Shown here: positions 4,478 through 60,083 of the stretch, one piece after another
Numbering within the stretch: the stretch's first letter is position 1
How the letters are laid out: every line of letters starts with the position of its first letter
Assembly (NCBI GenBank): GCA_032622095.1
Contig: CP136066.1
Span: 231,574,961-231,638,960, forward strand
Length of the DNA stretch: 64,000 bases
From: Siphonodentalium dalli
Lineage: Eukaryota; Mollusca; Scaphopoda; Gadilida; Siphonodentaliidae
Direction of reading: 5' to 3'
The notes under the pieces: generated by a model
The model's input: the letters and a program-made list of their open reading frames with translations, nothing else
What the model was told of the DNA's origin: nothing
Databases searched by the model: none
Translations under genes and position numbers: made by a program

Positions 4478-4536
4478 GGGAAATGTTCAGATAATAAGTT
4501 CAACAATTTGTTGAATTTATTATCAGAACATTTCCT
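4478..4536. repeat. Inverted satellite fragment forming a hairpin
   Basis: GGAAATGTTCAGATAATAAG here is the reverse complement of the satellite core that follows at about 4513 (TTATTATCAGAACATTTCC). The two are separated by a loop of a few bases, giving a stem of about 28 bp. It marks the left edge of the 68-bp satellite. Confidence 0.85.
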
Positions 4537-18639: not shown

Positions 18640-20052
18640 ATGGCGGCCACCGCGTGTTCGCGCTTGCAGCTTATCTGGAAACAGTTTCCAAAATGGGTAT
18701 GCAAACCATACCATGTTCGAAATGCAAACAGCTGCTCGTCAAAATATATCACGAATCTAAAGGACCGAAACCTCATTAAGGCTATTCACCCGGAAGGTGG
18801 AATGGAGGATCTCAAAAAACATTTGGAGTCAACATGCGGGGGTGTTTATTGCGGGTTTGACCCGACCGCAGACAGTTTGCATATTGGAAATCTAATTTCC
18901 GTCGTTGTGATGATTCACTTCCAACGGGCCGGTTACGATCCTATTGCAGTGTTAGGAGGGGCCACGGCTCAAATTGGAGACCCAAGCGGCAAAACCGCAG
19001 AACGACCGGCCATGTCGCAGAAAAACATTGACCACAACGCAGAATGTATTGAAACTTGTTTGAGAGCTATTTTCAGAAACCACAAGAACTTGATCTGGAA
19101 GAACAAAGACAAGCTTCCATGCTTGACCGTTTTAAACAATAACGAATGGTATGATGGTGCTAATTTGATTAAGTTTCTTTCGACTATTGGGAGGAAGTTT
19201 AGAATTGGAACAATGCTGAGTAAGCAAAGCGTTCAGATTCGGCTCGAGAGTGAGGAAGGTATGAGTTTTACCGAATTCAGCTATCAATTGTTTCAAGCCT
19301 ATGACTGGCTCCAACTGTTCAAACGACACAAATGTACAATCCAAATCGGTGGCAATGATCAGCTGGGAAACATTAAAATGGGACACGAACTCATACGGAA
19401 GATAGAGAATGTATACGTATACGGGATCGTTGTGCCGCTCCTAACGGATGCCGACGGGAGAAAGCTTGGCAAGAGCACGGGCAATTCTGTTTGGTTGAGT
19501 CCAAAAAAGACCTCACCATATGAGTTTTATCAATATTTTGTGAACTTGCCAGATTTAGAAGTTGAACAGTTTCTGAATTTGTTTTCATTTCTCTCTGACG
19601 AAGAACTATCTGATATAATGAAAGAGCATTCAGCTTGCCCAGGAAATAGGATTGCTCAAAATAAACTTGCTGAGCAAGTCACGCTCCTGGTGCATGGATC
19701 CATAGGTCTGGAGCAAGCTAAGAAGTGGACGGGGGCCTTTTTCGGTGGCGACTTGCAAGCAATGGCAAATCTCACAAAAGCAGAAATCAAGGAGCTTTTT
19801 CGCTTCTCGAAAAACGTCGAAATAATTTACGAACCTGGGATTACTATTGTTGACACCATAATGGCGGCCAAATGTTTCCAACGAACCGTAGATGCTGAGA
19901 GAACAATCCGGGAAGGTGGTGTCTCAATGAACCATCTTAAAGTGAAGGACCCTCATGCCCTGCCCATAAAAGGACTGCATATTTTGAGAAACGATTTGAC
20001 ACTTCTGAGAGTTGGAAAGAAGAACTACATTGTTATCAGATGGATAAAATAA
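18640..20052 (+). CDS. YARS2: Tyrosyl-tRNA synthetase, mitochondrial
   Basis: A complete 470-residue class I aminoacyl-tRNA synthetase that charges mitochondrial tRNA-Tyr. The start at 18640 is the first in-frame ATG (AATATGGCGG). Residues 1-45 are basic with no acidic residue before Asp42 (MAATACSRLQLIWKQFPKW...), fitting a mitochondrial targeting peptide. The catalytic fold follows: CGFDPTADSLHIGNL (71-85; HIGN is the HIGH signature), GDPSGKTAER (113-122), SYQLFQAYDW (214-223), the tyrosine-binding IQIGGNDQLGN (235-245) and GRKLGKSTGN (273-282; KLGKS is the KMSKS signature). The C-terminal S4-like tRNA-binding region starts near 405 (TIREGGVSMNHLKVKD). Length matches the animal mitochondrial enzyme (about 475) and not the longer cytosolic one. 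No intron interrupts it. No AATAAA was found before the MITE that starts 38 bp downstream of the stop. Confidence 0.97.
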   Translation: MAATACSRLQLIWKQFPKWVCKPYHVRNANSCSSKYITNLKDRNLIKAIHPEGGMEDLKKHLESTCGGVYCGFDPTADSLHIGNLISVVVMIHFQRAGYDPIAVLGGATAQIGDPSGKTAERPAMSQKNIDHNAECIETCLRAIFRNHKNLIWKNKDKLPCLTVLNNNEWYDGANLIKFLSTIGRKFRIGTMLSKQSVQIRLESEEGMSFTEFSYQLFQAYDWLQLFKRHKCTIQIGGNDQLGNIKMGHELIRKIENVYVYGIVVPLLTDADGRKLGKSTGNSVWLSPKKTSPYEFYQYFVNLPDLEVEQFLNLFSFLSDEELSDIMKEHSACPGNRIAQNKLAEQVTLLVHGSIGLEQAKKWTGAFFGGDLQAMANLTKAEIKELFRFSKNVEIIYEPGITIVDTIMAAKCFQRTVDAERTIREGGVSMNHLKVKDPHALPIKGLHILRNDLTLLRVGKKNYIVIRWIK

Positions 20053-24446: not shown

Positions 24447-24450
24447 TGTA

Positions 24451-24901
24451 GGTTACACTGGTGTAAATACTATAGGCAGCTCCCCCTGCGGTTGCGGGAG
24501 GAGTATAGAGTTTCACAGTTAAAACACTCTGGGCTGTGATTGGTTGCATGAATTAAATGTAAACTGTTGACAAAAATTCAAGGAATCATTCTCCCACAAA
24601 CTTCATTTGCCAAGAGGCCCATTCATTAAAGGTGAAGTCTGTTGTGGCTGTTTAGAAATTTTAAGTGTGATTGAAAAAATGACAATATTTTTTTAGTGCG
24701 GAACTGACCCTAGTCATGAAAAAACGAAAATTTGAAGTGGATTCCCTGCTAGACGGTGTTGATTTTTTTATTGGGAAAGTTTCCACAGATGTCAAGCTCA
24801 CATAATCCGAAGGCAGTTTGAACAGTTTCCATTTGACCTCTGATGCAGATCAACAAACGTTAACATTGAAGCCTATGGGAAATATTTACACCAGTGTAAC
24901 C
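24451..24901. mobile_element. Element R (first of 27 copies)
   Basis: A 451-bp non-coding element with a perfect inverted terminus: AGGTTACACTGGTGTAAATA at 24450-24469 and its complement at 24883-24902. Just inside the left end is a GC-rich hairpin (CTCCCCCTGCGG ... GCGGGAGGAG). Flanks differ by position: the outer left side reads TGTA|GGTT, while internal copies read CTTTA|GGTT and AACC|TAAAG. Short ends plus a possible TA or TGTA duplication make it MITE-like; the superfamily is not determinable. Confidence 0.88.
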
Positions 24902-25803
24902 TAAAGGGAAAAAATAGCTTTTTATCATTTTTGATTCCTGGGAGTCACTTTAAAGCATTTTAATGCATTTTACAGAGCCTGGTCTTTCAGTCCAATGAAT
25001 ATCTCATGCTTGGTGTGGCTATTCTTGCTGCTGATGTCTTCTTTCACTTACATCAGCCAAAAAAATAGTAAGATTTTTCATAAAAAATGACAATTTTTCA
25101 AGGTATTTTCAAAAAAATTCAAGGTGGTAATAGTCACATGATAATGCAAATGACCCATAACATGAGCATGTCAACGACACATATATCAATTGTTATAAGA
25201 ACCTAATCTAACAAGTATTTTGGATTTTATAGCCAGTGATATACAGATATATATCATAAAAGTGTGTCATTTCCACTGGTGGGTATGGTCATTTGAAGGT
25301 TAATAGCACTAAAACTTGGACACATTTAAGAAAATGCTTCAGCAATTCAAAGAGAGCATATCTTTATTCAACTAATTCAATATACACCCACATCCAGTTA
25401 TCTTGGATCACCCTTGCAGACCTGAAAATGTCATATTTTATTCTTCAATGTGCTGATAAAGTCATGCGCTTGATGCTCAGCTGATCAGATCTGGACTCAA
25501 TGACCTCACATCACCAGAAGTTCTCTCATGGAAAGAATATTGTACAGTCTTCCATAGCTGATCCAAGTTTGCAACACCAGACCCCTAAAACTGAGTGAAA
25601 ATGGGGCCTGAACATGACTGGTGGTGGAAAATTGTGCCTTTTTGATAAATAATTTGTTAAAGGGGGTGGGGTTAAATTGTGTGTGATAAATAAAGAACCA
25701 TAGGGGTGATATTGTTTTTGAACACAATTTTTCCATTGATGGGCAATTCTGAAGAAATGTAGGGAGTTACAATTATTCCGCGAAAAAGCGGGCTATCGCT
25801 TTA
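24902..25803. other. Spacer S (first of 26 copies)
   Basis: A 902-bp AT-rich segment between R copies. It begins TAAAGGGAAAAAATAGC and ends in a hairpin CCGCGAAAAAGCGG followed by GCTATCGCTTTA, so its own ends are weakly inverted (TAAAG...CTTTA). Two short frames (25293-25484 plus, beginning at TTG; 25506-25736 minus, beginning at ATG) show no recognisable domain and no coding-like composition; I do not call them genes. Confidence 0.8.
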
Positions 25804-28800
25804 GGTTACACTGGTGTAAATACTATAGGCAGCTCCCCCTGCGGTTGCGGGAGGAGTATAGAGTTTCACAGTTAAAACACTCTGGGCTGTGATTGGTTGC
25901 ATGAATTAAATGTAAACTGTTGACAAAAATTCAAGGAATCATTCTCCCACAAACTTCATTTGCCAAGAGGCCCATTCATTAAAGGTGAAGTCTGTTGTGG
26001 CTGTTTAGAAATTTTAAGTGTGATTGAAAAAATGACAATATTTTTTTAGTGCGGAACTGACCCTAGTCATGAAAAAACGAAAATTTGAAGTGGATTCCCT
26101 GCTAGACGGTGTTGATTTTTTTATTGGGAAAGTTTCCACAGATGTCAAGCTCACATAATCCGAAGGCAGTTTGAACAGTTTCCATTTGACCTCTGATGCA
26201 GATCAACAAACGTTAACATTGAAGCCTATGGGAAATATTTACACCAGTGTAACCTAAAGGGAAAAAATAGCTTTTTATCATTTTTGATTCCTGGGAGTCA
26301 CTTTAAAGCATTTTAATGCATTTTACAGAGCCTGGTCTTTCAGTCCAATGAATATCTCATGCTTGGTGTGGCTATTCTTGCTGCTGATGTCTTCTTTCAC
26401 TTACATCAGCCAAAAAAATAGTAAGATTTTTCATAAAAAATGACAATTTTTCAAGGTATTTTCAAAAAAATTCAAGGTGGTAATAGTCACATGATAATGC
26501 AAATGACCCATAACATGAGCATGTCAACGACACATATATCAATTGTTATAAGAACCTAATCTAACAAGTATTTTGGATTTTATAGCCAGTGATATACAGA
26601 TATATATCATAAAAGTGTGTCATTTCCACTGGTGGGTATGGTCATTTGAAGGTTAATAGCACTAAAACTTGGACACATTTAAGAAAATGCTTCAGCAATT
26701 CAAAGAGAGCATATCTTTATTCAACTAATTCAATATACACCCACATCCAGTTATCTTGGATCACCCTTGCAGACCTGAAAATGTCATATTTTATTCTTCA
26801 ATGTGCTGATAAAGTCATGCGCTTGATGCTCAGCTGATCAGATCTGGACTCAATGACCTCACATCACCAGAAGTTCTCTCATGGAAAGAATATTGTACAG
26901 TCTTCCATAGCTGATCCAAGTTTGCAACACCAGACCCCTAAAACTGAGTGAAAATGGGGCCTGAACATGACTGGTGGTGGAAAATTGTGCCTTTTTGATA
27001 AATAATTTGTTAAAGGGGGTGGGGTTAAATTGTGTGTGATAAATAAAGAACCATAGGGGTGATATTGTTTTTGAACACAATTTTTCCATTGATGGGCAAT
27101 TCTGAAGAAATGTAGGGAGTTACAATTATTCCGCGAAAAAGCGGGCTATCGCTTTAGGTTACACTGGTGTAAATACTATAGGCAGCTCCCCCTGCGGTTG
27201 CGGGAGGAGTATAGAGTTTCACAGTTAAAACACTCTGGGCTGTGATTGGTTGCATGAATTAAATGTAAACTGTTGACAAAAATTCAAGGAATCATTCTCC
27301 CACAAACTTCATTTGCCAAGAGGCCCATTCATTAAAGGTGAAGTCTGTTGTGGCTGTTTAGAAATTTTAAGTGTGATTGAAAAAATGACAATATTTTTTT
27401 AGTGCGGAACTGACCCTAGTCATGAAAAAACGAAAATTTGAAGTGGATTCCCTGCTAGACGGTGTTGATTTTTTTATTGGGAAAGTTTCCACAGATGTCA
27501 AGCTCACATAATCCGAAGGCAGTTTGAACAGTTTCCATTTGACCTCTGATGCAGATCAACAAACGTTAACATTGAAGCCTATGGGAAATATTTACACCAG
27601 TGTAACCTAAAGGGAAAAAATAGCTTTTTATCATTTTTGATTCCTGGGAGTCACTTTAAAGCATTTTAATGCATTTTACAGAGCCTGGTCTTTCAGTCCA
27701 ATGAATATCTCATGCTTGGTGTGGCTATTCTTGCTGCTGATGTCTTCTTTCACTTACATCAGCCAAAAAAATAGTAAGATTTTTCATAAAAAATGACAAT
27801 TTTTCAAGGTATTTTCAAAAAAATTCAAGGTGGTAATAGTCACATGATAATGCAAATGACCCATAACATGAGCATGTCAACGACACATATATCAATTGTT
27901 ATAAGAACCTAATCTAACAAGTATTTTGGATTTTATAGCCAGTGATATACAGATATATATCATAAAAGTGTGTCATTTCCACTGGTGGGTATGGTCATTT
28001 GAAGGTTAATAGCACTAAAACTTGGACACATTTAAGAAAATGCTTCAGCAATTCAAAGAGAGCATATCTTTATTCAACTAATTCAATATACACCCACATC
28101 CAGTTATCTTGGATCACCCTTGCAGACCTGAAAATGTCATATTTTATTCTTCAATGTGCTGATAAAGTCATGCGCTTGATGCTCAGCTGATCAGATCTGG
28201 ACTCAATGACCTCACATCACCAGAAGTTCTCTCATGGAAAGAATATTGTACAGTCTTCCATAGCTGATCCAAGTTTGCAACACCAGACCCCTAAAACTGA
28301 GTGAAAATGGGGCCTGAACATGACTGGTGGTGGAAAATTGTGCCTTTTTGATAAATAATTTGTTAAAGGGGGTGGGGTTAAATTGTGTGTGATAAATAAA
28401 GAACCATAGGGGTGATATTGTTTTTGAACACAATTTTTCCATTGATGGGCAATTCTGAAGAAATGTAGGGAGTTACAATTATTCCGCGAAAAAGCGGGCT
28501 ATCGCTTTAGGTTACACTGGTGTAAATACTATAGGCAGCTCCCCCTGCGGTTGCGGGAGGAGTATAGAGTTTCACAGTTAAAACACTCTGGGCTGTGATT
28601 GGTTGCATGAATTAAATGTAAACTGTTGACAAAAATTCAAGGAATCATTCTCCCACAAACTTCATTTGCCAAGAGGCCCATTCATTAAAGGTGAAGTCTG
28701 TTGTGGCTGTTTAGAAATTTTAAGTGTGATTGAAAAAATGACAATATTTTTTTAGTGCGGAACTGACCCTAGTCATGAAAAAACGAAAATTTGAAGTGGA

Positions 28801-31800
28801 TTCCCTGCTAGACGGTGTTGATTTTTTTATTGGGAAAGTTTCCACAGATGTCAAGCTCACATAATCCGAAGGCAGTTTGAACAGTTTCCATTTGACCTCT
28901 GATGCAGATCAACAAACGTTAACATTGAAGCCTATGGGAAATATTTACACCAGTGTAACCTAAAGGGAAAAAATAGCTTTTTATCATTTTTGATTCCTGG
29001 GAGTCACTTTAAAGCATTTTAATGCATTTTACAGAGCCTGGTCTTTCAGTCCAATGAATATCTCATGCTTGGTGTGGCTATTCTTGCTGCTGATGTCTTC
29101 TTTCACTTACATCAGCCAAAAAAATAGTAAGATTTTTCATAAAAAATGACAATTTTTCAAGGTATTTTCAAAAAAATTCAAGGTGGTAATAGTCACATGA
29201 TAATGCAAATGACCCATAACATGAGCATGTCAACGACACATATATCAATTGTTATAAGAACCTAATCTAACAAGTATTTTGGATTTTATAGCCAGTGATA
29301 TACAGATATATATCATAAAAGTGTGTCATTTCCACTGGTGGGTATGGTCATTTGAAGGTTAATAGCACTAAAACTTGGACACATTTAAGAAAATGCTTCA
29401 GCAATTCAAAGAGAGCATATCTTTATTCAACTAATTCAATATACACCCACATCCAGTTATCTTGGATCACCCTTGCAGACCTGAAAATGTCATATTTTAT
29501 TCTTCAATGTGCTGATAAAGTCATGCGCTTGATGCTCAGCTGATCAGATCTGGACTCAATGACCTCACATCACCAGAAGTTCTCTCATGGAAAGAATATT
29601 GTACAGTCTTCCATAGCTGATCCAAGTTTGCAACACCAGACCCCTAAAACTGAGTGAAAATGGGGCCTGAACATGACTGGTGGTGGAAAATTGTGCCTTT
29701 TTGATAAATAATTTGTTAAAGGGGGTGGGGTTAAATTGTGTGTGATAAATAAAGAACCATAGGGGTGATATTGTTTTTGAACACAATTTTTCCATTGATG
29801 GGCAATTCTGAAGAAATGTAGGGAGTTACAATTATTCCGCGAAAAAGCGGGCTATCGCTTTAGGTTACACTGGTGTAAATACTATAGGCAGCTCCCCCTG
29901 CGGTTGCGGGAGGAGTATAGAGTTTCACAGTTAAAACACTCTGGGCTGTGATTGGTTGCATGAATTAAATGTAAACTGTTGACAAAAATTCAAGGAATCA
30001 TTCTCCCACAAACTTCATTTGCCAAGAGGCCCATTCATTAAAGGTGAAGTCTGTTGTGGCTGTTTAGAAATTTTAAGTGTGATTGAAAAAATGACAATAT
30101 TTTTTTAGTGCGGAACTGACCCTAGTCATGAAAAAACGAAAATTTGAAGTGGATTCCCTGCTAGACGGTGTTGATTTTTTTATTGGGAAAGTTTCCACAG
30201 ATGTCAAGCTCACATAATCCGAAGGCAGTTTGAACAGTTTCCATTTGACCTCTGATGCAGATCAACAAACGTTAACATTGAAGCCTATGGGAAATATTTA
30301 CACCAGTGTAACCTAAAGGGAAAAAATAGCTTTTTATCATTTTTGATTCCTGGGAGTCACTTTAAAGCATTTTAATGCATTTTACAGAGCCTGGTCTTTC
30401 AGTCCAATGAATATCTCATGCTTGGTGTGGCTATTCTTGCTGCTGATGTCTTCTTTCACTTACATCAGCCAAAAAAATAGTAAGATTTTTCATAAAAAAT
30501 GACAATTTTTCAAGGTATTTTCAAAAAAATTCAAGGTGGTAATAGTCACATGATAATGCAAATGACCCATAACATGAGCATGTCAACGACACATATATCA
30601 ATTGTTATAAGAACCTAATCTAACAAGTATTTTGGATTTTATAGCCAGTGATATACAGATATATATCATAAAAGTGTGTCATTTCCACTGGTGGGTATGG
30701 TCATTTGAAGGTTAATAGCACTAAAACTTGGACACATTTAAGAAAATGCTTCAGCAATTCAAAGAGAGCATATCTTTATTCAACTAATTCAATATACACC
30801 CACATCCAGTTATCTTGGATCACCCTTGCAGACCTGAAAATGTCATATTTTATTCTTCAATGTGCTGATAAAGTCATGCGCTTGATGCTCAGCTGATCAG
30901 ATCTGGACTCAATGACCTCACATCACCAGAAGTTCTCTCATGGAAAGAATATTGTACAGTCTTCCATAGCTGATCCAAGTTTGCAACACCAGACCCCTAA
31001 AACTGAGTGAAAATGGGGCCTGAACATGACTGGTGGTGGAAAATTGTGCCTTTTTGATAAATAATTTGTTAAAGGGGGTGGGGTTAAATTGTGTGTGATA
31101 AATAAAGAACCATAGGGGTGATATTGTTTTTGAACACAATTTTTCCATTGATGGGCAATTCTGAAGAAATGTAGGGAGTTACAATTATTCCGCGAAAAAG
31201 CGGGCTATCGCTTTAGGTTACACTGGTGTAAATACTATAGGCAGCTCCCCCTGCGGTTGCGGGAGGAGTATAGAGTTTCACAGTTAAAACACTCTGGGCT
31301 GTGATTGGTTGCATGAATTAAATGTAAACTGTTGACAAAAATTCAAGGAATCATTCTCCCACAAACTTCATTTGCCAAGAGGCCCATTCATTAAAGGTGA
31401 AGTCTGTTGTGGCTGTTTAGAAATTTTAAGTGTGATTGAAAAAATGACAATATTTTTTTAGTGCGGAACTGACCCTAGTCATGAAAAAACGAAAATTTGA
31501 AGTGGATTCCCTGCTAGACGGTGTTGATTTTTTTATTGGGAAAGTTTCCACAGATGTCAAGCTCACATAATCCGAAGGCAGTTTGAACAGTTTCCATTTG
31601 ACCTCTGATGCAGATCAACAAACGTTAACATTGAAGCCTATGGGAAATATTTACACCAGTGTAACCTAAAGGGAAAAAATAGCTTTTTATCATTTTTGAT
31701 TCCTGGGAGTCACTTTAAAGCATTTTAATGCATTTTACAGAGCCTGGTCTTTCAGTCCAATGAATATCTCATGCTTGGTGTGGCTATTCTTGCTGCTGAT

Positions 31801-34800
31801 GTCTTCTTTCACTTACATCAGCCAAAAAAATAGTAAGATTTTTCATAAAAAATGACAATTTTTCAAGGTATTTTCAAAAAAATTCAAGGTGGTAATAGTC
31901 ACATGATAATGCAAATGACCCATAACATGAGCATGTCAACGACACATATATCAATTGTTATAAGAACCTAATCTAACAAGTATTTTGGATTTTATAGCCA
32001 GTGATATACAGATATATATCATAAAAGTGTGTCATTTCCACTGGTGGGTATGGTCATTTGAAGGTTAATAGCACTAAAACTTGGACACATTTAAGAAAAT
32101 GCTTCAGCAATTCAAAGAGAGCATATCTTTATTCAACTAATTCAATATACACCCACATCCAGTTATCTTGGATCACCCTTGCAGACCTGAAAATGTCATA
32201 TTTTATTCTTCAATGTGCTGATAAAGTCATGCGCTTGATGCTCAGCTGATCAGATCTGGACTCAATGACCTCACATCACCAGAAGTTCTCTCATGGAAAG
32301 AATATTGTACAGTCTTCCATAGCTGATCCAAGTTTGCAACACCAGACCCCTAAAACTGAGTGAAAATGGGGCCTGAACATGACTGGTGGTGGAAAATTGT
32401 GCCTTTTTGATAAATAATTTGTTAAAGGGGGTGGGGTTAAATTGTGTGTGATAAATAAAGAACCATAGGGGTGATATTGTTTTTGAACACAATTTTTCCA
32501 TTGATGGGCAATTCTGAAGAAATGTAGGGAGTTACAATTATTCCGCGAAAAAGCGGGCTATCGCTTTAGGTTACACTGGTGTAAATACTATAGGCAGCTC
32601 CCCCTGCGGTTGCGGGAGGAGTATAGAGTTTCACAGTTAAAACACTCTGGGCTGTGATTGGTTGCATGAATTAAATGTAAACTGTTGACAAAAATTCAAG
32701 GAATCATTCTCCCACAAACTTCATTTGCCAAGAGGCCCATTCATTAAAGGTGAAGTCTGTTGTGGCTGTTTAGAAATTTTAAGTGTGATTGAAAAAATGA
32801 CAATATTTTTTTAGTGCGGAACTGACCCTAGTCATGAAAAAACGAAAATTTGAAGTGGATTCCCTGCTAGACGGTGTTGATTTTTTTATTGGGAAAGTTT
32901 CCACAGATGTCAAGCTCACATAATCCGAAGGCAGTTTGAACAGTTTCCATTTGACCTCTGATGCAGATCAACAAACGTTAACATTGAAGCCTATGGGAAA
33001 TATTTACACCAGTGTAACCTAAAGGGAAAAAATAGCTTTTTATCATTTTTGATTCCTGGGAGTCACTTTAAAGCATTTTAATGCATTTTACAGAGCCTGG
33101 TCTTTCAGTCCAATGAATATCTCATGCTTGGTGTGGCTATTCTTGCTGCTGATGTCTTCTTTCACTTACATCAGCCAAAAAAATAGTAAGATTTTTCATA
33201 AAAAATGACAATTTTTCAAGGTATTTTCAAAAAAATTCAAGGTGGTAATAGTCACATGATAATGCAAATGACCCATAACATGAGCATGTCAACGACACAT
33301 ATATCAATTGTTATAAGAACCTAATCTAACAAGTATTTTGGATTTTATAGCCAGTGATATACAGATATATATCATAAAAGTGTGTCATTTCCACTGGTGG
33401 GTATGGTCATTTGAAGGTTAATAGCACTAAAACTTGGACACATTTAAGAAAATGCTTCAGCAATTCAAAGAGAGCATATCTTTATTCAACTAATTCAATA
33501 TACACCCACATCCAGTTATCTTGGATCACCCTTGCAGACCTGAAAATGTCATATTTTATTCTTCAATGTGCTGATAAAGTCATGCGCTTGATGCTCAGCT
33601 GATCAGATCTGGACTCAATGACCTCACATCACCAGAAGTTCTCTCATGGAAAGAATATTGTACAGTCTTCCATAGCTGATCCAAGTTTGCAACACCAGAC
33701 CCCTAAAACTGAGTGAAAATGGGGCCTGAACATGACTGGTGGTGGAAAATTGTGCCTTTTTGATAAATAATTTGTTAAAGGGGGTGGGGTTAAATTGTGT
33801 GTGATAAATAAAGAACCATAGGGGTGATATTGTTTTTGAACACAATTTTTCCATTGATGGGCAATTCTGAAGAAATGTAGGGAGTTACAATTATTCCGCG
33901 AAAAAGCGGGCTATCGCTTTAGGTTACACTGGTGTAAATACTATAGGCAGCTCCCCCTGCGGTTGCGGGAGGAGTATAGAGTTTCACAGTTAAAACACTC
34001 TGGGCTGTGATTGGTTGCATGAATTAAATGTAAACTGTTGACAAAAATTCAAGGAATCATTCTCCCACAAACTTCATTTGCCAAGAGGCCCATTCATTAA
34101 AGGTGAAGTCTGTTGTGGCTGTTTAGAAATTTTAAGTGTGATTGAAAAAATGACAATATTTTTTTAGTGCGGAACTGACCCTAGTCATGAAAAAACGAAA
34201 ATTTGAAGTGGATTCCCTGCTAGACGGTGTTGATTTTTTTATTGGGAAAGTTTCCACAGATGTCAAGCTCACATAATCCGAAGGCAGTTTGAACAGTTTC
34301 CATTTGACCTCTGATGCAGATCAACAAACGTTAACATTGAAGCCTATGGGAAATATTTACACCAGTGTAACCTAAAGGGAAAAAATAGCTTTTTATCATT
34401 TTTGATTCCTGGGAGTCACTTTAAAGCATTTTAATGCATTTTACAGAGCCTGGTCTTTCAGTCCAATGAATATCTCATGCTTGGTGTGGCTATTCTTGCT
34501 GCTGATGTCTTCTTTCACTTACATCAGCCAAAAAAATAGTAAGATTTTTCATAAAAAATGACAATTTTTCAAGGTATTTTCAAAAAAATTCAAGGTGGTA
34601 ATAGTCACATGATAATGCAAATGACCCATAACATGAGCATGTCAACGACACATATATCAATTGTTATAAGAACCTAATCTAACAAGTATTTTGGATTTTA
34701 TAGCCAGTGATATACAGATATATATCATAAAAGTGTGTCATTTCCACTGGTGGGTATGGTCATTTGAAGGTTAATAGCACTAAAACTTGGACACATTTAA

Positions 34801-46800: not shown

Positions 46801-49800
46801 ACCCATAACATGAGCATGTCAACGACACATATATCAATTGTTATAAGAACCTAATCTAACAAGTATTTTGGATTTTATAGCCAGTGATATACAGATATAT
46901 ATCATAAAAGTGTGTCATTTCCACTGGTGGGTATGGTCATTTGAAGGTTAATAGCACTAAAACTTGGACACATTTAAGAAAATGCTTCAGCAATTCAAAG
47001 AGAGCATATCTTTATTCAACTAATTCAATATACACCCACATCCAGTTATCTTGGATCACCCTTGCAGACCTGAAAATGTCATATTTTATTCTTCAATGTG
47101 CTGATAAAGTCATGCGCTTGATGCTCAGCTGATCAGATCTGGACTCAATGACCTCACATCACCAGAAGTTCTCTCATGGAAAGAATATTGTACAGTCTTC
47201 CATAGCTGATCCAAGTTTGCAACACCAGACCCCTAAAACTGAGTGAAAATGGGGCCTGAACATGACTGGTGGTGGAAAATTGTGCCTTTTTGATAAATAA
47301 TTTGTTAAAGGGGGTGGGGTTAAATTGTGTGTGATAAATAAAGAACCATAGGGGTGATATTGTTTTTGAACACAATTTTTCCATTGATGGGCAATTCTGA
47401 AGAAATGTAGGGAGTTACAATTATTCCGCGAAAAAGCGGGCTATCGCTTTAGGTTACACTGGTGTAAATACTATAGGCAGCTCCCCCTGCGGTTGCGGGA
47501 GGAGTATAGAGTTTCACAGTTAAAACACTCTGGGCTGTGATTGGTTGCATGAATTAAATGTAAACTGTTGACAAAAATTCAAGGAATCATTCTCCCACAA
47601 ACTTCATTTGCCAAGAGGCCCATTCATTAAAGGTGAAGTCTGTTGTGGCTGTTTAGAAATTTTAAGTGTGATTGAAAAAATGACAATATTTTTTTAGTGC
47701 GGAACTGACCCTAGTCATGAAAAAACGAAAATTTGAAGTGGATTCCCTGCTAGACGGTGTTGATTTTTTTATTGGGAAAGTTTCCACAGATGTCAAGCTC
47801 ACATAATCCGAAGGCAGTTTGAACAGTTTCCATTTGACCTCTGATGCAGATCAACAAACGTTAACATTGAAGCCTATGGGAAATATTTACACCAGTGTAA
47901 CCTAAAGGGAAAAAATAGCTTTTTATCATTTTTGATTCCTGGGAGTCACTTTAAAGCATTTTAATGCATTTTACAGAGCCTGGTCTTTCAGTCCAATGAA
48001 TATCTCATGCTTGGTGTGGCTATTCTTGCTGCTGATGTCTTCTTTCACTTACATCAGCCAAAAAAATAGTAAGATTTTTCATAAAAAATGACAATTTTTC
48101 AAGGTATTTTCAAAAAAATTCAAGGTGGTAATAGTCACATGATAATGCAAATGACCCATAACATGAGCATGTCAACGACACATATATCAATTGTTATAAG
48201 AACCTAATCTAACAAGTATTTTGGATTTTATAGCCAGTGATATACAGATATATATCATAAAAGTGTGTCATTTCCACTGGTGGGTATGGTCATTTGAAGG
48301 TTAATAGCACTAAAACTTGGACACATTTAAGAAAATGCTTCAGCAATTCAAAGAGAGCATATCTTTATTCAACTAATTCAATATACACCCACATCCAGTT
48401 ATCTTGGATCACCCTTGCAGACCTGAAAATGTCATATTTTATTCTTCAATGTGCTGATAAAGTCATGCGCTTGATGCTCAGCTGATCAGATCTGGACTCA
48501 ATGACCTCACATCACCAGAAGTTCTCTCATGGAAAGAATATTGTACAGTCTTCCATAGCTGATCCAAGTTTGCAACACCAGACCCCTAAAACTGAGTGAA
48601 AATGGGGCCTGAACATGACTGGTGGTGGAAAATTGTGCCTTTTTGATAAATAATTTGTTAAAGGGGGTGGGGTTAAATTGTGTGTGATAAATAAAGAACC
48701 ATAGGGGTGATATTGTTTTTGAACACAATTTTTCCATTGATGGGCAATTCTGAAGAAATGTAGGGAGTTACAATTATTCCGCGAAAAAGCGGGCTATCGC
48801 TTTAGGTTACACTGGTGTAAATACTATAGGCAGCTCCCCCTGCGGTTGCGGGAGGAGTATAGAGTTTCACAGTTAAAACACTCTGGGCTGTGATTGGTTG
48901 CATGAATTAAATGTAAACTGTTGACAAAAATTCAAGGAATCATTCTCCCACAAACTTCATTTGCCAAGAGGCCCATTCATTAAAGGTGAAGTCTGTTGTG
49001 GCTGTTTAGAAATTTTAAGTGTGATTGAAAAAATGACAATATTTTTTTAGTGCGGAACTGACCCTAGTCATGAAAAAACGAAAATTTGAAGTGGATTCCC
49101 TGCTAGACGGTGTTGATTTTTTTATTGGGAAAGTTTCCACAGATGTCAAGCTCACATAATCCGAAGGCAGTTTGAACAGTTTCCATTTGACCTCTGATGC
49201 AGATCAACAAACGTTAACATTGAAGCCTATGGGAAATATTTACACCAGTGTAACCTAAAGGGAAAAAATAGCTTTTTATCATTTTTGATTCCTGGGAGTC
49301 ACTTTAAAGCATTTTAATGCATTTTACAGAGCCTGGTCTTTCAGTCCAATGAATATCTCATGCTTGGTGTGGCTATTCTTGCTGCTGATGTCTTCTTTCA
49401 CTTACATCAGCCAAAAAAATAGTAAGATTTTTCATAAAAAATGACAATTTTTCAAGGTATTTTCAAAAAAATTCAAGGTGGTAATAGTCACATGATAATG
49501 CAAATGACCCATAACATGAGCATGTCAACGACACATATATCAATTGTTATAAGAACCTAATCTAACAAGTATTTTGGATTTTATAGCCAGTGATATACAG
49601 ATATATATCATAAAAGTGTGTCATTTCCACTGGTGGGTATGGTCATTTGAAGGTTAATAGCACTAAAACTTGGACACATTTAAGAAAATGCTTCAGCAAT
49701 TCAAAGAGAGCATATCTTTATTCAACTAATTCAATATACACCCACATCCAGTTATCTTGGATCACCCTTGCAGACCTGAAAATGTCATATTTTATTCTTC

Positions 49801-52800
49801 AATGTGCTGATAAAGTCATGCGCTTGATGCTCAGCTGATCAGATCTGGACTCAATGACCTCACATCACCAGAAGTTCTCTCATGGAAAGAATATTGTACA
49901 GTCTTCCATAGCTGATCCAAGTTTGCAACACCAGACCCCTAAAACTGAGTGAAAATGGGGCCTGAACATGACTGGTGGTGGAAAATTGTGCCTTTTTGAT
50001 AAATAATTTGTTAAAGGGGGTGGGGTTAAATTGTGTGTGATAAATAAAGAACCATAGGGGTGATATTGTTTTTGAACACAATTTTTCCATTGATGGGCAA
50101 TTCTGAAGAAATGTAGGGAGTTACAATTATTCCGCGAAAAAGCGGGCTATCGCTTTAGGTTACACTGGTGTAAATACTATAGGCAGCTCCCCCTGCGGTT
50201 GCGGGAGGAGTATAGAGTTTCACAGTTAAAACACTCTGGGCTGTGATTGGTTGCATGAATTAAATGTAAACTGTTGACAAAAATTCAAGGAATCATTCTC
50301 CCACAAACTTCATTTGCCAAGAGGCCCATTCATTAAAGGTGAAGTCTGTTGTGGCTGTTTAGAAATTTTAAGTGTGATTGAAAAAATGACAATATTTTTT
50401 TAGTGCGGAACTGACCCTAGTCATGAAAAAACGAAAATTTGAAGTGGATTCCCTGCTAGACGGTGTTGATTTTTTTATTGGGAAAGTTTCCACAGATGTC
50501 AAGCTCACATAATCCGAAGGCAGTTTGAACAGTTTCCATTTGACCTCTGATGCAGATCAACAAACGTTAACATTGAAGCCTATGGGAAATATTTACACCA
50601 GTGTAACCTAAAGGGAAAAAATAGCTTTTTATCATTTTTGATTCCTGGGAGTCACTTTAAAGCATTTTAATGCATTTTACAGAGCCTGGTCTTTCAGTCC
50701 AATGAATATCTCATGCTTGGTGTGGCTATTCTTGCTGCTGATGTCTTCTTTCACTTACATCAGCCAAAAAAATAGTAAGATTTTTCATAAAAAATGACAA
50801 TTTTTCAAGGTATTTTCAAAAAAATTCAAGGTGGTAATAGTCACATGATAATGCAAATGACCCATAACATGAGCATGTCAACGACACATATATCAATTGT
50901 TATAAGAACCTAATCTAACAAGTATTTTGGATTTTATAGCCAGTGATATACAGATATATATCATAAAAGTGTGTCATTTCCACTGGTGGGTATGGTCATT
51001 TGAAGGTTAATAGCACTAAAACTTGGACACATTTAAGAAAATGCTTCAGCAATTCAAAGAGAGCATATCTTTATTCAACTAATTCAATATACACCCACAT
51101 CCAGTTATCTTGGATCACCCTTGCAGACCTGAAAATGTCATATTTTATTCTTCAATGTGCTGATAAAGTCATGCGCTTGATGCTCAGCTGATCAGATCTG
51201 GACTCAATGACCTCACATCACCAGAAGTTCTCTCATGGAAAGAATATTGTACAGTCTTCCATAGCTGATCCAAGTTTGCAACACCAGACCCCTAAAACTG
51301 AGTGAAAATGGGGCCTGAACATGACTGGTGGTGGAAAATTGTGCCTTTTTGATAAATAATTTGTTAAAGGGGGTGGGGTTAAATTGTGTGTGATAAATAA
51401 AGAACCATAGGGGTGATATTGTTTTTGAACACAATTTTTCCATTGATGGGCAATTCTGAAGAAATGTAGGGAGTTACAATTATTCCGCGAAAAAGCGGGC
51501 TATCGCTTTAGGTTACACTGGTGTAAATACTATAGGCAGCTCCCCCTGCGGTTGCGGGAGGAGTATAGAGTTTCACAGTTAAAACACTCTGGGCTGTGAT
51601 TGGTTGCATGAATTAAATGTAAACTGTTGACAAAAATTCAAGGAATCATTCTCCCACAAACTTCATTTGCCAAGAGGCCCATTCATTAAAGGTGAAGTCT
51701 GTTGTGGCTGTTTAGAAATTTTAAGTGTGATTGAAAAAATGACAATATTTTTTTAGTGCGGAACTGACCCTAGTCATGAAAAAACGAAAATTTGAAGTGG
51801 ATTCCCTGCTAGACGGTGTTGATTTTTTTATTGGGAAAGTTTCCACAGATGTCAAGCTCACATAATCCGAAGGCAGTTTGAACAGTTTCCATTTGACCTC
51901 TGATGCAGATCAACAAACGTTAACATTGAAGCCTATGGGAAATATTTACACCAGTGTAACCTAAAGGGAAAAAATAGCTTTTTATCATTTTTGATTCCTG
52001 GGAGTCACTTTAAAGCATTTTAATGCATTTTACAGAGCCTGGTCTTTCAGTCCAATGAATATCTCATGCTTGGTGTGGCTATTCTTGCTGCTGATGTCTT
52101 CTTTCACTTACATCAGCCAAAAAAATAGTAAGATTTTTCATAAAAAATGACAATTTTTCAAGGTATTTTCAAAAAAATTCAAGGTGGTAATAGTCACATG
52201 ATAATGCAAATGACCCATAACATGAGCATGTCAACGACACATATATCAATTGTTATAAGAACCTAATCTAACAAGTATTTTGGATTTTATAGCCAGTGAT
52301 ATACAGATATATATCATAAAAGTGTGTCATTTCCACTGGTGGGTATGGTCATTTGAAGGTTAATAGCACTAAAACTTGGACACATTTAAGAAAATGCTTC
52401 AGCAATTCAAAGAGAGCATATCTTTATTCAACTAATTCAATATACACCCACATCCAGTTATCTTGGATCACCCTTGCAGACCTGAAAATGTCATATTTTA
52501 TTCTTCAATGTGCTGATAAAGTCATGCGCTTGATGCTCAGCTGATCAGATCTGGACTCAATGACCTCACATCACCAGAAGTTCTCTCATGGAAAGAATAT
52601 TGTACAGTCTTCCATAGCTGATCCAAGTTTGCAACACCAGACCCCTAAAACTGAGTGAAAATGGGGCCTGAACATGACTGGTGGTGGAAAATTGTGCCTT
52701 TTTGATAAATAATTTGTTAAAGGGGGTGGGGTTAAATTGTGTGTGATAAATAAAGAACCATAGGGGTGATATTGTTTTTGAACACAATTTTTCCATTGAT

Positions 52801-55800
52801 GGGCAATTCTGAAGAAATGTAGGGAGTTACAATTATTCCGCGAAAAAGCGGGCTATCGCTTTAGGTTACACTGGTGTAAATACTATAGGCAGCTCCCCCT
52901 GCGGTTGCGGGAGGAGTATAGAGTTTCACAGTTAAAACACTCTGGGCTGTGATTGGTTGCATGAATTAAATGTAAACTGTTGACAAAAATTCAAGGAATC
53001 ATTCTCCCACAAACTTCATTTGCCAAGAGGCCCATTCATTAAAGGTGAAGTCTGTTGTGGCTGTTTAGAAATTTTAAGTGTGATTGAAAAAATGACAATA
53101 TTTTTTTAGTGCGGAACTGACCCTAGTCATGAAAAAACGAAAATTTGAAGTGGATTCCCTGCTAGACGGTGTTGATTTTTTTATTGGGAAAGTTTCCACA
53201 GATGTCAAGCTCACATAATCCGAAGGCAGTTTGAACAGTTTCCATTTGACCTCTGATGCAGATCAACAAACGTTAACATTGAAGCCTATGGGAAATATTT
53301 ACACCAGTGTAACCTAAAGGGAAAAAATAGCTTTTTATCATTTTTGATTCCTGGGAGTCACTTTAAAGCATTTTAATGCATTTTACAGAGCCTGGTCTTT
53401 CAGTCCAATGAATATCTCATGCTTGGTGTGGCTATTCTTGCTGCTGATGTCTTCTTTCACTTACATCAGCCAAAAAAATAGTAAGATTTTTCATAAAAAA
53501 TGACAATTTTTCAAGGTATTTTCAAAAAAATTCAAGGTGGTAATAGTCACATGATAATGCAAATGACCCATAACATGAGCATGTCAACGACACATATATC
53601 AATTGTTATAAGAACCTAATCTAACAAGTATTTTGGATTTTATAGCCAGTGATATACAGATATATATCATAAAAGTGTGTCATTTCCACTGGTGGGTATG
53701 GTCATTTGAAGGTTAATAGCACTAAAACTTGGACACATTTAAGAAAATGCTTCAGCAATTCAAAGAGAGCATATCTTTATTCAACTAATTCAATATACAC
53801 CCACATCCAGTTATCTTGGATCACCCTTGCAGACCTGAAAATGTCATATTTTATTCTTCAATGTGCTGATAAAGTCATGCGCTTGATGCTCAGCTGATCA
53901 GATCTGGACTCAATGACCTCACATCACCAGAAGTTCTCTCATGGAAAGAATATTGTACAGTCTTCCATAGCTGATCCAAGTTTGCAACACCAGACCCCTA
54001 AAACTGAGTGAAAATGGGGCCTGAACATGACTGGTGGTGGAAAATTGTGCCTTTTTGATAAATAATTTGTTAAAGGGGGTGGGGTTAAATTGTGTGTGAT
54101 AAATAAAGAACCATAGGGGTGATATTGTTTTTGAACACAATTTTTCCATTGATGGGCAATTCTGAAGAAATGTAGGGAGTTACAATTATTCCGCGAAAAA
54201 GCGGGCTATCGCTTTAGGTTACACTGGTGTAAATACTATAGGCAGCTCCCCCTGCGGTTGCGGGAGGAGTATAGAGTTTCACAGTTAAAACACTCTGGGC
54301 TGTGATTGGTTGCATGAATTAAATGTAAACTGTTGACAAAAATTCAAGGAATCATTCTCCCACAAACTTCATTTGCCAAGAGGCCCATTCATTAAAGGTG
54401 AAGTCTGTTGTGGCTGTTTAGAAATTTTAAGTGTGATTGAAAAAATGACAATATTTTTTTAGTGCGGAACTGACCCTAGTCATGAAAAAACGAAAATTTG
54501 AAGTGGATTCCCTGCTAGACGGTGTTGATTTTTTTATTGGGAAAGTTTCCACAGATGTCAAGCTCACATAATCCGAAGGCAGTTTGAACAGTTTCCATTT
54601 GACCTCTGATGCAGATCAACAAACGTTAACATTGAAGCCTATGGGAAATATTTACACCAGTGTAACCTAAAGGGAAAAAATAGCTTTTTATCATTTTTGA
54701 TTCCTGGGAGTCACTTTAAAGCATTTTAATGCATTTTACAGAGCCTGGTCTTTCAGTCCAATGAATATCTCATGCTTGGTGTGGCTATTCTTGCTGCTGA
54801 TGTCTTCTTTCACTTACATCAGCCAAAAAAATAGTAAGATTTTTCATAAAAAATGACAATTTTTCAAGGTATTTTCAAAAAAATTCAAGGTGGTAATAGT
54901 CACATGATAATGCAAATGACCCATAACATGAGCATGTCAACGACACATATATCAATTGTTATAAGAACCTAATCTAACAAGTATTTTGGATTTTATAGCC
55001 AGTGATATACAGATATATATCATAAAAGTGTGTCATTTCCACTGGTGGGTATGGTCATTTGAAGGTTAATAGCACTAAAACTTGGACACATTTAAGAAAA
55101 TGCTTCAGCAATTCAAAGAGAGCATATCTTTATTCAACTAATTCAATATACACCCACATCCAGTTATCTTGGATCACCCTTGCAGACCTGAAAATGTCAT
55201 ATTTTATTCTTCAATGTGCTGATAAAGTCATGCGCTTGATGCTCAGCTGATCAGATCTGGACTCAATGACCTCACATCACCAGAAGTTCTCTCATGGAAA
55301 GAATATTGTACAGTCTTCCATAGCTGATCCAAGTTTGCAACACCAGACCCCTAAAACTGAGTGAAAATGGGGCCTGAACATGACTGGTGGTGGAAAATTG
55401 TGCCTTTTTGATAAATAATTTGTTAAAGGGGGTGGGGTTAAATTGTGTGTGATAAATAAAGAACCATAGGGGTGATATTGTTTTTGAACACAATTTTTCC
55501 ATTGATGGGCAATTCTGAAGAAATGTAGGGAGTTACAATTATTCCGCGAAAAAGCGGGCTATCGCTTTAGGTTACACTGGTGTAAATACTATAGGCAGCT
55601 CCCCCTGCGGTTGCGGGAGGAGTATAGAGTTTCACAGTTAAAACACTCTGGGCTGTGATTGGTTGCATGAATTAAATGTAAACTGTTGACAAAAATTCAA
55701 GGAATCATTCTCCCACAAACTTCATTTGCCAAGAGGCCCATTCATTAAAGGTGAAGTCTGTTGTGGCTGTTTAGAAATTTTAAGTGTGATTGAAAAAATG

Positions 55801-58800
55801 ACAATATTTTTTTAGTGCGGAACTGACCCTAGTCATGAAAAAACGAAAATTTGAAGTGGATTCCCTGCTAGACGGTGTTGATTTTTTTATTGGGAAAGTT
55901 TCCACAGATGTCAAGCTCACATAATCCGAAGGCAGTTTGAACAGTTTCCATTTGACCTCTGATGCAGATCAACAAACGTTAACATTGAAGCCTATGGGAA
56001 ATATTTACACCAGTGTAACCTAAAGGGAAAAAATAGCTTTTTATCATTTTTGATTCCTGGGAGTCACTTTAAAGCATTTTAATGCATTTTACAGAGCCTG
56101 GTCTTTCAGTCCAATGAATATCTCATGCTTGGTGTGGCTATTCTTGCTGCTGATGTCTTCTTTCACTTACATCAGCCAAAAAAATAGTAAGATTTTTCAT
56201 AAAAAATGACAATTTTTCAAGGTATTTTCAAAAAAATTCAAGGTGGTAATAGTCACATGATAATGCAAATGACCCATAACATGAGCATGTCAACGACACA
56301 TATATCAATTGTTATAAGAACCTAATCTAACAAGTATTTTGGATTTTATAGCCAGTGATATACAGATATATATCATAAAAGTGTGTCATTTCCACTGGTG
56401 GGTATGGTCATTTGAAGGTTAATAGCACTAAAACTTGGACACATTTAAGAAAATGCTTCAGCAATTCAAAGAGAGCATATCTTTATTCAACTAATTCAAT
56501 ATACACCCACATCCAGTTATCTTGGATCACCCTTGCAGACCTGAAAATGTCATATTTTATTCTTCAATGTGCTGATAAAGTCATGCGCTTGATGCTCAGC
56601 TGATCAGATCTGGACTCAATGACCTCACATCACCAGAAGTTCTCTCATGGAAAGAATATTGTACAGTCTTCCATAGCTGATCCAAGTTTGCAACACCAGA
56701 CCCCTAAAACTGAGTGAAAATGGGGCCTGAACATGACTGGTGGTGGAAAATTGTGCCTTTTTGATAAATAATTTGTTAAAGGGGGTGGGGTTAAATTGTG
56801 TGTGATAAATAAAGAACCATAGGGGTGATATTGTTTTTGAACACAATTTTTCCATTGATGGGCAATTCTGAAGAAATGTAGGGAGTTACAATTATTCCGC
56901 GAAAAAGCGGGCTATCGCTTTAGGTTACACTGGTGTAAATACTATAGGCAGCTCCCCCTGCGGTTGCGGGAGGAGTATAGAGTTTCACAGTTAAAACACT
57001 CTGGGCTGTGATTGGTTGCATGAATTAAATGTAAACTGTTGACAAAAATTCAAGGAATCATTCTCCCACAAACTTCATTTGCCAAGAGGCCCATTCATTA
57101 AAGGTGAAGTCTGTTGTGGCTGTTTAGAAATTTTAAGTGTGATTGAAAAAATGACAATATTTTTTTAGTGCGGAACTGACCCTAGTCATGAAAAAACGAA
57201 AATTTGAAGTGGATTCCCTGCTAGACGGTGTTGATTTTTTTATTGGGAAAGTTTCCACAGATGTCAAGCTCACATAATCCGAAGGCAGTTTGAACAGTTT
57301 CCATTTGACCTCTGATGCAGATCAACAAACGTTAACATTGAAGCCTATGGGAAATATTTACACCAGTGTAACCTAAAGGGAAAAAATAGCTTTTTATCAT
57401 TTTTGATTCCTGGGAGTCACTTTAAAGCATTTTAATGCATTTTACAGAGCCTGGTCTTTCAGTCCAATGAATATCTCATGCTTGGTGTGGCTATTCTTGC
57501 TGCTGATGTCTTCTTTCACTTACATCAGCCAAAAAAATAGTAAGATTTTTCATAAAAAATGACAATTTTTCAAGGTATTTTCAAAAAAATTCAAGGTGGT
57601 AATAGTCACATGATAATGCAAATGACCCATAACATGAGCATGTCAACGACACATATATCAATTGTTATAAGAACCTAATCTAACAAGTATTTTGGATTTT
57701 ATAGCCAGTGATATACAGATATATATCATAAAAGTGTGTCATTTCCACTGGTGGGTATGGTCATTTGAAGGTTAATAGCACTAAAACTTGGACACATTTA
57801 AGAAAATGCTTCAGCAATTCAAAGAGAGCATATCTTTATTCAACTAATTCAATATACACCCACATCCAGTTATCTTGGATCACCCTTGCAGACCTGAAAA
57901 TGTCATATTTTATTCTTCAATGTGCTGATAAAGTCATGCGCTTGATGCTCAGCTGATCAGATCTGGACTCAATGACCTCACATCACCAGAAGTTCTCTCA
58001 TGGAAAGAATATTGTACAGTCTTCCATAGCTGATCCAAGTTTGCAACACCAGACCCCTAAAACTGAGTGAAAATGGGGCCTGAACATGACTGGTGGTGGA
58101 AAATTGTGCCTTTTTGATAAATAATTTGTTAAAGGGGGTGGGGTTAAATTGTGTGTGATAAATAAAGAACCATAGGGGTGATATTGTTTTTGAACACAAT
58201 TTTTCCATTGATGGGCAATTCTGAAGAAATGTAGGGAGTTACAATTATTCCGCGAAAAAGCGGGCTATCGCTTTAGGTTACACTGGTGTAAATACTATAG
58301 GCAGCTCCCCCTGCGGTTGCGGGAGGAGTATAGAGTTTCACAGTTAAAACACTCTGGGCTGTGATTGGTTGCATGAATTAAATGTAAACTGTTGACAAAA
58401 ATTCAAGGAATCATTCTCCCACAAACTTCATTTGCCAAGAGGCCCATTCATTAAAGGTGAAGTCTGTTGTGGCTGTTTAGAAATTTTAAGTGTGATTGAA
58501 AAAATGACAATATTTTTTTAGTGCGGAACTGACCCTAGTCATGAAAAAACGAAAATTTGAAGTGGATTCCCTGCTAGACGGTGTTGATTTTTTTATTGGG
58601 AAAGTTTCCACAGATGTCAAGCTCACATAATCCGAAGGCAGTTTGAACAGTTTCCATTTGACCTCTGATGCAGATCAACAAACGTTAACATTGAAGCCTA
58701 TGGGAAATATTTACACCAGTGTAACCTAAAGGGAAAAAATAGCTTTTTATCATTTTTGATTCCTGGGAGTCACTTTAAAGCATTTTAATGCATTTTACAG

Positions 58801-59628
58801 AGCCTGGTCTTTCAGTCCAATGAATATCTCATGCTTGGTGTGGCTATTCTTGCTGCTGATGTCTTCTTTCACTTACATCAGCCAAAAAAATAGTAAGATT
58901 TTTCATAAAAAATGACAATTTTTCAAGGTATTTTCAAAAAAATTCAAGGTGGTAATAGTCACATGATAATGCAAATGACCCATAACATGAGCATGTCAAC
59001 GACACATATATCAATTGTTATAAGAACCTAATCTAACAAGTATTTTGGATTTTATAGCCAGTGATATACAGATATATATCATAAAAGTGTGTCATTTCCA
59101 CTGGTGGGTATGGTCATTTGAAGGTTAATAGCACTAAAACTTGGACACATTTAAGAAAATGCTTCAGCAATTCAAAGAGAGCATATCTTTATTCAACTAA
59201 TTCAATATACACCCACATCCAGTTATCTTGGATCACCCTTGCAGACCTGAAAATGTCATATTTTATTCTTCAATGTGCTGATAAAGTCATGCGCTTGATG
59301 CTCAGCTGATCAGATCTGGACTCAATGACCTCACATCACCAGAAGTTCTCTCATGGAAAGAATATTGTACAGTCTTCCATAGCTGATCCAAGTTTGCAAC
59401 ACCAGACCCCTAAAACTGAGTGAAAATGGGGCCTGAACATGACTGGTGGTGGAAAATTGTGCCTTTTTGATAAATAATTTGTTAAAGGGGGTGGGGTTAA
59501 ATTGTGTGTGATAAATAAAGAACCATAGGGGTGATATTGTTTTTGAACACAATTTTTCCATTGATGGGCAATTCTGAAGAAATGTAGGGAGTTACAATTA
59601 TTCCGCGAAAAAGCGGGCTATCGCTTTA

Positions 59629-60079
59629 GGTTACACTGGTGTAAATACTATAGGCAGCTCCCCCTGCGGTTGCGGGAGGAGTATAGAGTTTCACAGTTAA
59701 AACACTCTGGGCTGTGATTGGTTGCATGAATTAAATGTAAACTGTTGACAAAAATTCAAGGAATCATTCTCCCACAAACTTCATTTGCCAAGAGGCCCAT
59801 TCATTAAAGGTGAAGTCTGTTGTGGCTGTTTAGAAATTTTAAGTGTGATTGAAAAAATGACAATATTTTTTTAGTGCGGAACTGACCCTAGTCATGAAAA
59901 AACGAAAATTTGAAGTGGATTCCCTGCTAGACGGTGTTGATTTTTTTATTGGGAAAGTTTCCACAGATGTCAAGCTCACATAATCCGAAGGCAGTTTGAA
60001 CAGTTTCCATTTGACCTCTGATGCAGATCAACAAACGTTAACATTGAAGCCTATGGGAAATATTTACACCAGTGTAACC
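59629..60079. mobile_element. Element R, last copy, closing the array
   Basis: The 27th R copy, indistinguishable by eye from the first. It is followed directly by TGTAACCCGCC instead of TAAAGGG, so the array ends exactly at the R terminus with no partial spacer. Confidence 0.93.
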
Positions 60080-60083
60080 TGTA

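Follow-up and report, generated by a model that had tools for sequence, protein, structure and literature searches.

A 64,000-nucleotide stretch of the genome of the scaphopod Siphonodentalium dalli (hereafter the window; C6:231,574,961-231,638,960 in an assembly of 2.23 Gb and nine contigs) carries a tandem array in which a 451-bp element, R, alternates with a 902-bp satellite monomer, S. Arrays of this form, (R-S)n-R, inserted into the genome as single units, as a rule each within its own 4-bp target-site duplication. We consider it probable that they constitute a composite DNA transposon whose ends are supplied by a miniature inverted-repeat transposable element (MITE), whose cargo is the satellite S and whose R-S units have been multiplied.

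Results

The window array is bounded by R and flanked by TGTA

The window array spans 35,629 bp, or 26 x 1353 + 451, which corresponds to 26 R-S units and a final R. The original prediction had deduced this composition, with both edges at R ends, and our comparison within the window bore it out: all 26 units and the last R match unit 1 at every base, and there is no N anywhere in the window. The value n = 26 depends on the assembly and is that of one assembly and one haplotype. The outer flanks were likewise as predicted, with TGTA on both sides of the array, while internal R copies sit in the context TTTA-R-TAAA. Perfect inverted termini were correctly attributed to R, but their length is 19 bp (GGTTACACTGGTGTAAATA) rather than 20 bp, the 20th pair being formed by one base of each TGTA. 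The features of the array are as follows.

24447-24450, no strand: left copy of the 4-bp target-site duplication, TGTA (sequence)
24451-60079, plus strand: array (R-S)x26-R, 35,629 bp, units all identical (sequence comparison)
24451-24901, plus strand: first R copy, 451 bp, MITE-like, without a notable open reading frame (sequence, reading-frame check)
24451-24469, plus strand: left 19-bp terminal inverted repeat of the first R (sequence comparison)
24883-24901, minus strand: right 19-bp terminal inverted repeat of the first R (sequence comparison)
24902-25803, plus strand: first S copy, 902 bp, starting with TAAA and finishing with TTTA; S forms S-S satellite arrays elsewhere (sequence, genome loci)
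25778-25791, plus strand: possible hairpin CCGC-GAAAAA-GCGG in the final 48 bp of S (sequence)
59629-60079, plus strand: last (27th) R copy, whose right terminus is the array end (sequence)
60080-60083, no strand: right copy of the 4-bp target-site duplication, TGTA (sequence)

The final 48 bp of S were invariant among the seven S copies aligned.

R-S arrays inserted as single blocks across the genome

R occurs in two families, alpha (that of the window) and beta (R'). We checked 34 alpha-type R-S arrays at both ends, with n ranging from 1 to 26, and 33 of them stop exactly at R with perfect 4-bp duplications. The set consists of 14 loci found by similarity (14/14 with perfect duplications); three from the list of end patterns (L064, L065, and L066, all perfect); three found by paired ends (TAGA, TACC, and CACA; two of these, read at their ends, have non-integer unit lengths); 12 further loci of a 1352-bp subfamily (11 perfect); the window array; and a second long array at C1:225,049,434-225,078,297, whose 28,864 bp equal 21 x 1353 + 451 (n = 21 by length) and which has TATA on both sides. 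Numbers from genome similarity searches are lower bounds, and pattern listings refer to first places. Among the 33 duplications, we counted 22 different 4-mers; 25 start with T, 26 end with A, and TATA is the commonest (7), which gives R the target preference T--A. When the 33 right 4-mers were dealt at random among the loci, the mean number of matches was 2.7 and the maximum 10 in 20,000 trials, compared to 33 observed. At the exception, C2:30.4 Mb, the array also lies between two copies of ACTA, but the left copy is set off from R by six additional bases, CCTTTA. These bases much resemble the way S ends (CGCTTTA), as though this R had held an internal position in the donor.

Since 33 of 34 arrays end exactly at R and have 4-bp duplications, we conclude that whole arrays were inserted. 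Two element copies bound a cargo, the outer ends are the ones used, and there is a single target duplication, as in a composite transposon. The proposal that R-S-R moves as one composite unit therefore stands, whereas the alternative of TA duplications is rejected, because the duplications are 4 bp and vary. Solo R, R-S-R, and longer forms, which the prediction had suggested looking for in the assembly along with their flanking 4-mers, were all found.

Two alpha R pairs without S lie outside the set of 34: L045 is flanked by TATA on either side, and L044 by TTCA and CTCA, which do not match. Two further long R-S runs, at C1:158.6 and C1:259 Mb, run into 100-N gaps at one end and were left unscored. 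In a sample of six beta loci, four have perfect duplications (C1:8.48 Mb, AATA; C1:31.8 Mb, TACA; C1:35.9 Mb, TAGA; C1:39.0 Mb, TCTA). At L034 (C1:38,336,400-38,339,400), an old R' occupies a TGTA site. The right flank of this site (~200 bp) occurs twice, and S and a second R' lie between the two copies; this locus reads as a tandem duplication that carried host flank along.

R differs between units that share a conserved S

Beta R' is exactly 451 bp in L038 and L048, the same as alpha R. In a global alignment of one alpha-beta pair, we counted 288 identities and 153 mismatches over 441 columns, with nine gaps; by BLAST, identity was ~70% over 269 columns (overall range, 65 to 70%). In contrast, S copies beside alpha and beta R are ~97.5% alike, and the most diverged S that we opened, in L034, is still 92.6% identical over aligned bases. 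R copies within a locus belong to one family in the loci opened. Because the two parts of a unit would not be expected to diverge so unequally, R was probably exchanged beneath a conserved S, as judged from these alignments. A one-R stage for each unit, such as a circle, would give a simple account of this exchange. The cargo of R may be exchangeable too: at L045 (C1:219,538,100-219,540,200), the two alpha R copies enclose a spacer that starts TAAAGGGCCATGTGGCC and has no match to S, and the same spacer, reversed, adjoins R at L040 and L043.

The two families can also lie side by side, as at L088 (C1:225,047,800-225,049,500), where 641 bp separate the end of a beta R'-S array from that of the 21-unit alpha array. 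Despite the nine alignment gaps, alpha and beta R share a length of exactly 451 bp, and S is exactly twice 451; the match possibly reflects a length constraint or chance. When we compared S with R as two diverged R copies, just short weak matches were seen, and this origin of S was rejected.

R is a MITE-like element that also occurs alone

R has the properties of a MITE with terminal inverted repeats: it is short, noncoding, and dispersed, and its duplications are of fixed length. Its ends read GG...CC. In a check of open reading frames, no frame longer than 76 amino acids was found in R or S, and hence no coding capacity. The terminal-inverted-repeat pattern of R occurs at 5337 places in the genome. 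Solo copies with 4-bp duplications were found both for alpha R (L039, CTCA; L041, ATTA; L070, TGTG; L075, TCAT) and for R' (L030, TGTA; L033, TTTA), and span 376 to 451 bp. Other single copies, namely, L031 (AGAA/AGCA), L040, L043, and the truncated L042, have no clean duplication.

An autonomous transposase partner would be expected to carry the R terminus GGTTACACTGGTGTAAAT. Three candidates for this role were set aside. At L029, two R'' copies lie 4522 bp apart, and six identical bases flank each R'' on both sides, so that the locus reads as a tandem duplication and not as a long terminal repeat (LTR) element; nothing was recognized by eye in its frames, on which no profile search was run. 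L035/L049 has a single terminus only, with frames nearby that by eye resemble those of a long interspersed nuclear element, and L072 is an R interrupted by an unrelated repeat. The terminal letters of R gave no match in a text search of the literature.

Alpha-type R also occurs as fragments. At L067, L068, L069, L071, L073, and L074, R is followed by ATCACACCCCAT, and the five of these read far enough consist of an R fragment (from position 78 or 86 to 451), 94 to 95% identical to alpha R, within another repeat; among the nine stretches with the right-end pattern in which R is followed by ATC, the six opened are such embedded fragments. The presence of R fragments of this identity in another repeat indicates that alpha-type R predates the burst of alpha R-S arrays. 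A different fate of the R terminus is seen at L036 (C1:43,174,696-43,175,550), where a 24-bp tandem array whose unit is the R terminus (35 copies at no more than one mismatch) adjoins an R fragment; it is a transposon end turned minisatellite.

S is a satellite monomer with R at one fixed junction

S is a satellite monomer of ~900 bp that forms long head-to-tail arrays of one monomer, with S-S arrays at C1:206, 238, and 275 Mb. S right ends without a following G were detected at 787 places, and S left ends that lack the usual base at the second position ahead of S at 322 places. Among the matches listed, all on C1, S ends mostly cluster in a few large arrays with a period near 898 to 900. The piece read at C1:275.6 Mb contains S-S-S only; C1:206.05 Mb holds a regular S-S-R' higher-order repeat; C1:237.98-238.08 Mb holds mixtures, such as S-S-R'-S-R'-S (238.0 Mb); and L085 (187.7 Mb) holds a repeated block R'-S-R'-S-S-S. 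R' occupies one fixed S junction in the pieces read, CGCTTTA-R'-TAAA, although two of the four R' copies in L085 have CGCTTCA on the left. R is thus present at the fixed junction in some S monomers only.

S-S junctions without R (L076, L077, L078, L083, and L084) read CGC, then T3A1, T3A2, T3A3, T2A3, or T1A3, then GGG. They always keep three T or three A and are never short on both sides. These forms are possible footprints of R loss by end joining from TTTA and TAAA, and would equally be expected from small deletions in TTTAAA. Four further loci taken at first for S without R (L079 to L082) are S followed by an R' that starts with T.

All 26 units of the window array descend from one changed unit

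We compared variants among 18 loci and found 28 locus-level variants present in all copies of a locus, compared to 16 present in some copies only, the latter within six loci. Sixteen of the all-copies variants were seen in just one of the 18 loci (nine in L064, three in L065, two in the window, and one each in L059 and L066). One of those in the window, S746A, was searched for genome-wide with a 28-base pattern; there were 26 exact matches, all in the window array. As every one of the 26 units carries S746A and the search found it at no other place, all 26 window units descend from one changed unit. The variant S454T of L059 gave two genome-wide matches, which are the two L059 units. A one-base deletion in L065 is not private, with 24 matches in 13 loci, and accounts for all units in each of these loci. 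These searches were for exact matches, which further-mutated copies would escape.

The commonest composite in two samples has two S copies

For a sample of copy number, we picked array ends solely by a C or G at position 3 of the duplication and paired them by distance and strand. All 36 left ends and 56 of 62 right ends were used (six on C5:171 and C9:190 Mb were omitted, with no left end near); 28 left ends were paired and 8 were not. Pairs were sized from their ends, and full 4-mers were read at the fetched loci. All 28 pairs agree at position 3 by eye. By size, 13 pairs have n = 2, four have n = 1, four are solo-sized, and seven are longer or irregular, two of the last being, or matching by size, R with an inserted repeat. 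The 1352-bp subfamily, which is defined by the single-base deletion, comprises 13 loci and 24 units, with n = 2 in nine, n = 1 in three, and n = 3 in one. The commonest form in both samples is therefore R-S-R-S-R and not R-S-R. In the union of the two samples, with two n = 1 loci common to both counted once, 22 loci have n = 2 and 5 have n = 1 (one-sided p = 0.0008; the test is post hoc and the loci are related). Long forms are the arrays with n = 26 (window) and n = 21 (C1:225 Mb) and the gap-meeting runs at C1:158.6 and C1:259 Mb.

Other features of the window

18529-20049, plus strand: open frame of 507 codons with a match to tyrosyl/tryptophanyl-tRNA synthetases (PF00579, E = 1e-72; profile match)
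4510-7543: separate 68-bp tandem array, 44.5 copies, 91% matches (repeat detection)

The open frame we take to be, probably, that of the mitochondrial tyrosyl enzyme.

Discussion

Mechanism and alternatives

We propose that R is a MITE-like nonautonomous DNA transposon whose presence at a fixed S junction would make a mixed R-S satellite unit. A putative transposase supplied in trans would use the outer left end of one R copy together with the outer right end of a second copy, and everything between both ends would insert as one composite, be it R-S-R, most often R-S-R-S-R, or longer; R would also move alone. A DNA transposase is the presumed mover, and each insertion would stem from a single R-S unit multiplied near the time of insertion. 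For the multiplication, the likeliest route, though we would not put it at quite an even chance, is that a 1353-bp R-S circle was copied by a rolling-circle mechanism and that the resulting concatemer integrated at R ends; at the window locus, the outcome would be 26 identical units in a TGTA site. A more ambitious version, in which the satellite spreads as a mobile element through rolling-circle multiplication of the 1353-bp circle alternating with integration of the concatemer at any pair of R ends, and in which the R module, and perhaps the cargo, is exchangeable at the one-R circle, is speculative, and we rate it as rather unlikely.

The next likeliest account of the amplification step, a serious contender that we nevertheless hold to be somewhat improbable, dispenses with the circle: short n = 1 insertions, R-S-R with their duplications, would have grown where they stood as R copies underwent unequal exchange. 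The R copies are obvious substrates for such exchange, n varies among loci, and solo R could be the reciprocal product of loss. This account does not predict that n = 1 is rarer than n = 2 (4 versus 13 of the 28 pairs; 5 versus 22 in the union), and it needs very recent growth from one unit to yield 26 units that show no difference and all carry a variant unique to the array. Circle copying yields 26 S746A units in one step, whereas in-place exchange needs a very recent sweep of the whole array.

R could instead be the LTR of a short retrotransposon resembling a terminal-repeat retrotransposon in miniature (TRIM), its tandem arrays being produced by one insertion or by LTR recombination. The architecture and the 4-bp duplications are alike, and the preference for TATA and TACA recalls gypsy-type integrases. 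Tandem LTR arrays with flanking target duplications are also described in plants (PMC11899658). From R and S themselves, with no scan of the genome for reverse transcriptase elements whose LTRs resemble R, we nevertheless regard this origin as improbable. R does form direct repeats, but its ends are GG...CC with a 19-bp inverted terminus and not TG...CA; by eye, S, which begins TAAAGGGAAAAAATAGC, has no TGG primer site within its initial ~36 bases, and no purine tract precedes the right R, where S ends GCGGGCTATCGCTTTA. Neither R nor S has coding capacity, alpha and beta R are only 65 to 70% alike beside near-identical S, and S-S arrays without R would be left unexplained. Retrozymes, in which a hammerhead circular RNA is reverse transcribed into tandem copies, also form tandem genomic copies with short duplications, recalling the R-S arrays. 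A search of two units against Rfam (E up to 5) returned no hammerhead or other ribozyme, only four lines all far below family cut-offs, and no RNA family reaches its cut-off anywhere in the window; as the array ends are moreover precise and lie at an inverted-repeat element, we consider a retrozyme very improbable. Helitrons and HINE elements are not known to make a target duplication, and they insert between fixed host bases. They were rejected on account of the 4-bp duplications at 33 of 34 loci, though S has the possible hairpin near its end. Least credible of all is a plain satellite array with TGTA on both sides by chance: S does form ordinary satellite arrays, but the flank table, with 33 of 34 loci showing matching 4-mers at exact R ends, refutes it.

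Several observations weigh against the composite transposon that we favor, or against parts of it. Two of the six sampled beta loci have no clean duplication, C1:44.3 Mb reading TTAA/TAAA and C1:51.6 Mb having TATT preceded by eleven additional bases that resemble S. Inside arrays, R lies between TTTA and TAAA and not between copies of a 4-bp repeat, so the event that first placed R in S differed from a clean insertion with a 4-bp duplication. Neither a transposase nor an autonomous partner with R termini was found among the matches listed, where the oddly structured L029, L032, L035/L049, L047, and L072 were inspected by eye with no profile search on these, and no R-S circle was seen. As to single-unit ancestry, seven of the 28 all-copies variants are one polymorphism, S189, present in nine loci and never mixed within a locus, and five further ones, in L064, are states common to beta S and so inherited; among the 16 that remain, just S746A and S454T were tested as private, and gene conversion between tandem units could also have spread variants. 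Finally, neither a simple rolling-circle model nor a simple cutting model predicts the peak at n = 2. This form could be the mobile element itself, and the 1352-bp subfamily, with 9 of 13 loci at n = 2, fits a mobile n = 2 element copied as such equally well.

Significance and comparison with known systems

How satellite repeats disperse from their home arrays is a long-standing question, and they are usually just loosely tied to transposable elements. Here the borders are exact to the base: satellite cargo lies within transposon ends, with one duplication per block, at dozens of insertions in one genome. The window array shows a concrete way in which satellite DNA can scatter, with block mobility via R ends apparent, and this long array is traced to one unit by a private variant. 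Together, these features make the order of amplification and insertion directly testable.

In a literature search covering mostly titles and the beginnings of abstracts, we found no published satellite monomer bounded by complete transposon ends. In bacterial composite transposons, two insertion sequence copies move the intervening DNA with one target duplication; the R-S arrays differ from these in being eukaryotic, in having noncoding ends and a satellite monomer as cargo, and in being tandemly multiplied. The nearest published cases that we saw are satellite repeats within Helentrons and within MITEs. Helentrons are not known to make a 4-bp target duplication. The oyster Helentron Cg_HINE is a mobile element that disperses satellite-like tandem repeats, some related to classical satellites (PMC7492417). 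Its repeats form the center of one element (PMC7492417), whereas here complete transposon ends bound each repeat, and what moves, making 4-bp duplications, is a block that runs from one such end to another. Also comparable are the tandem LTR-retrotransposon and TRIM arrays of plants, which alternate terminal repeat and internal region, share the internal terminal repeats, and have one duplication around the array, and for which a single-insertion origin is argued (PMC11899658). Unlike in those arrays, R has inverted termini and also occurs alone, S forms S-S arrays, and a primer site, purine tract, and coding region were not seen. The Xenopus elements miDNA4 and Xstir likewise link a MITE to a satellite of variable copy number (PMC12628747, PMC9659126). 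In these elements, as there described, the satellite lies inside one MITE (PMC12628747, PMC9659126), whereas each R-S unit includes a complete MITE, and the satellite occupies the space from one MITE to the next.

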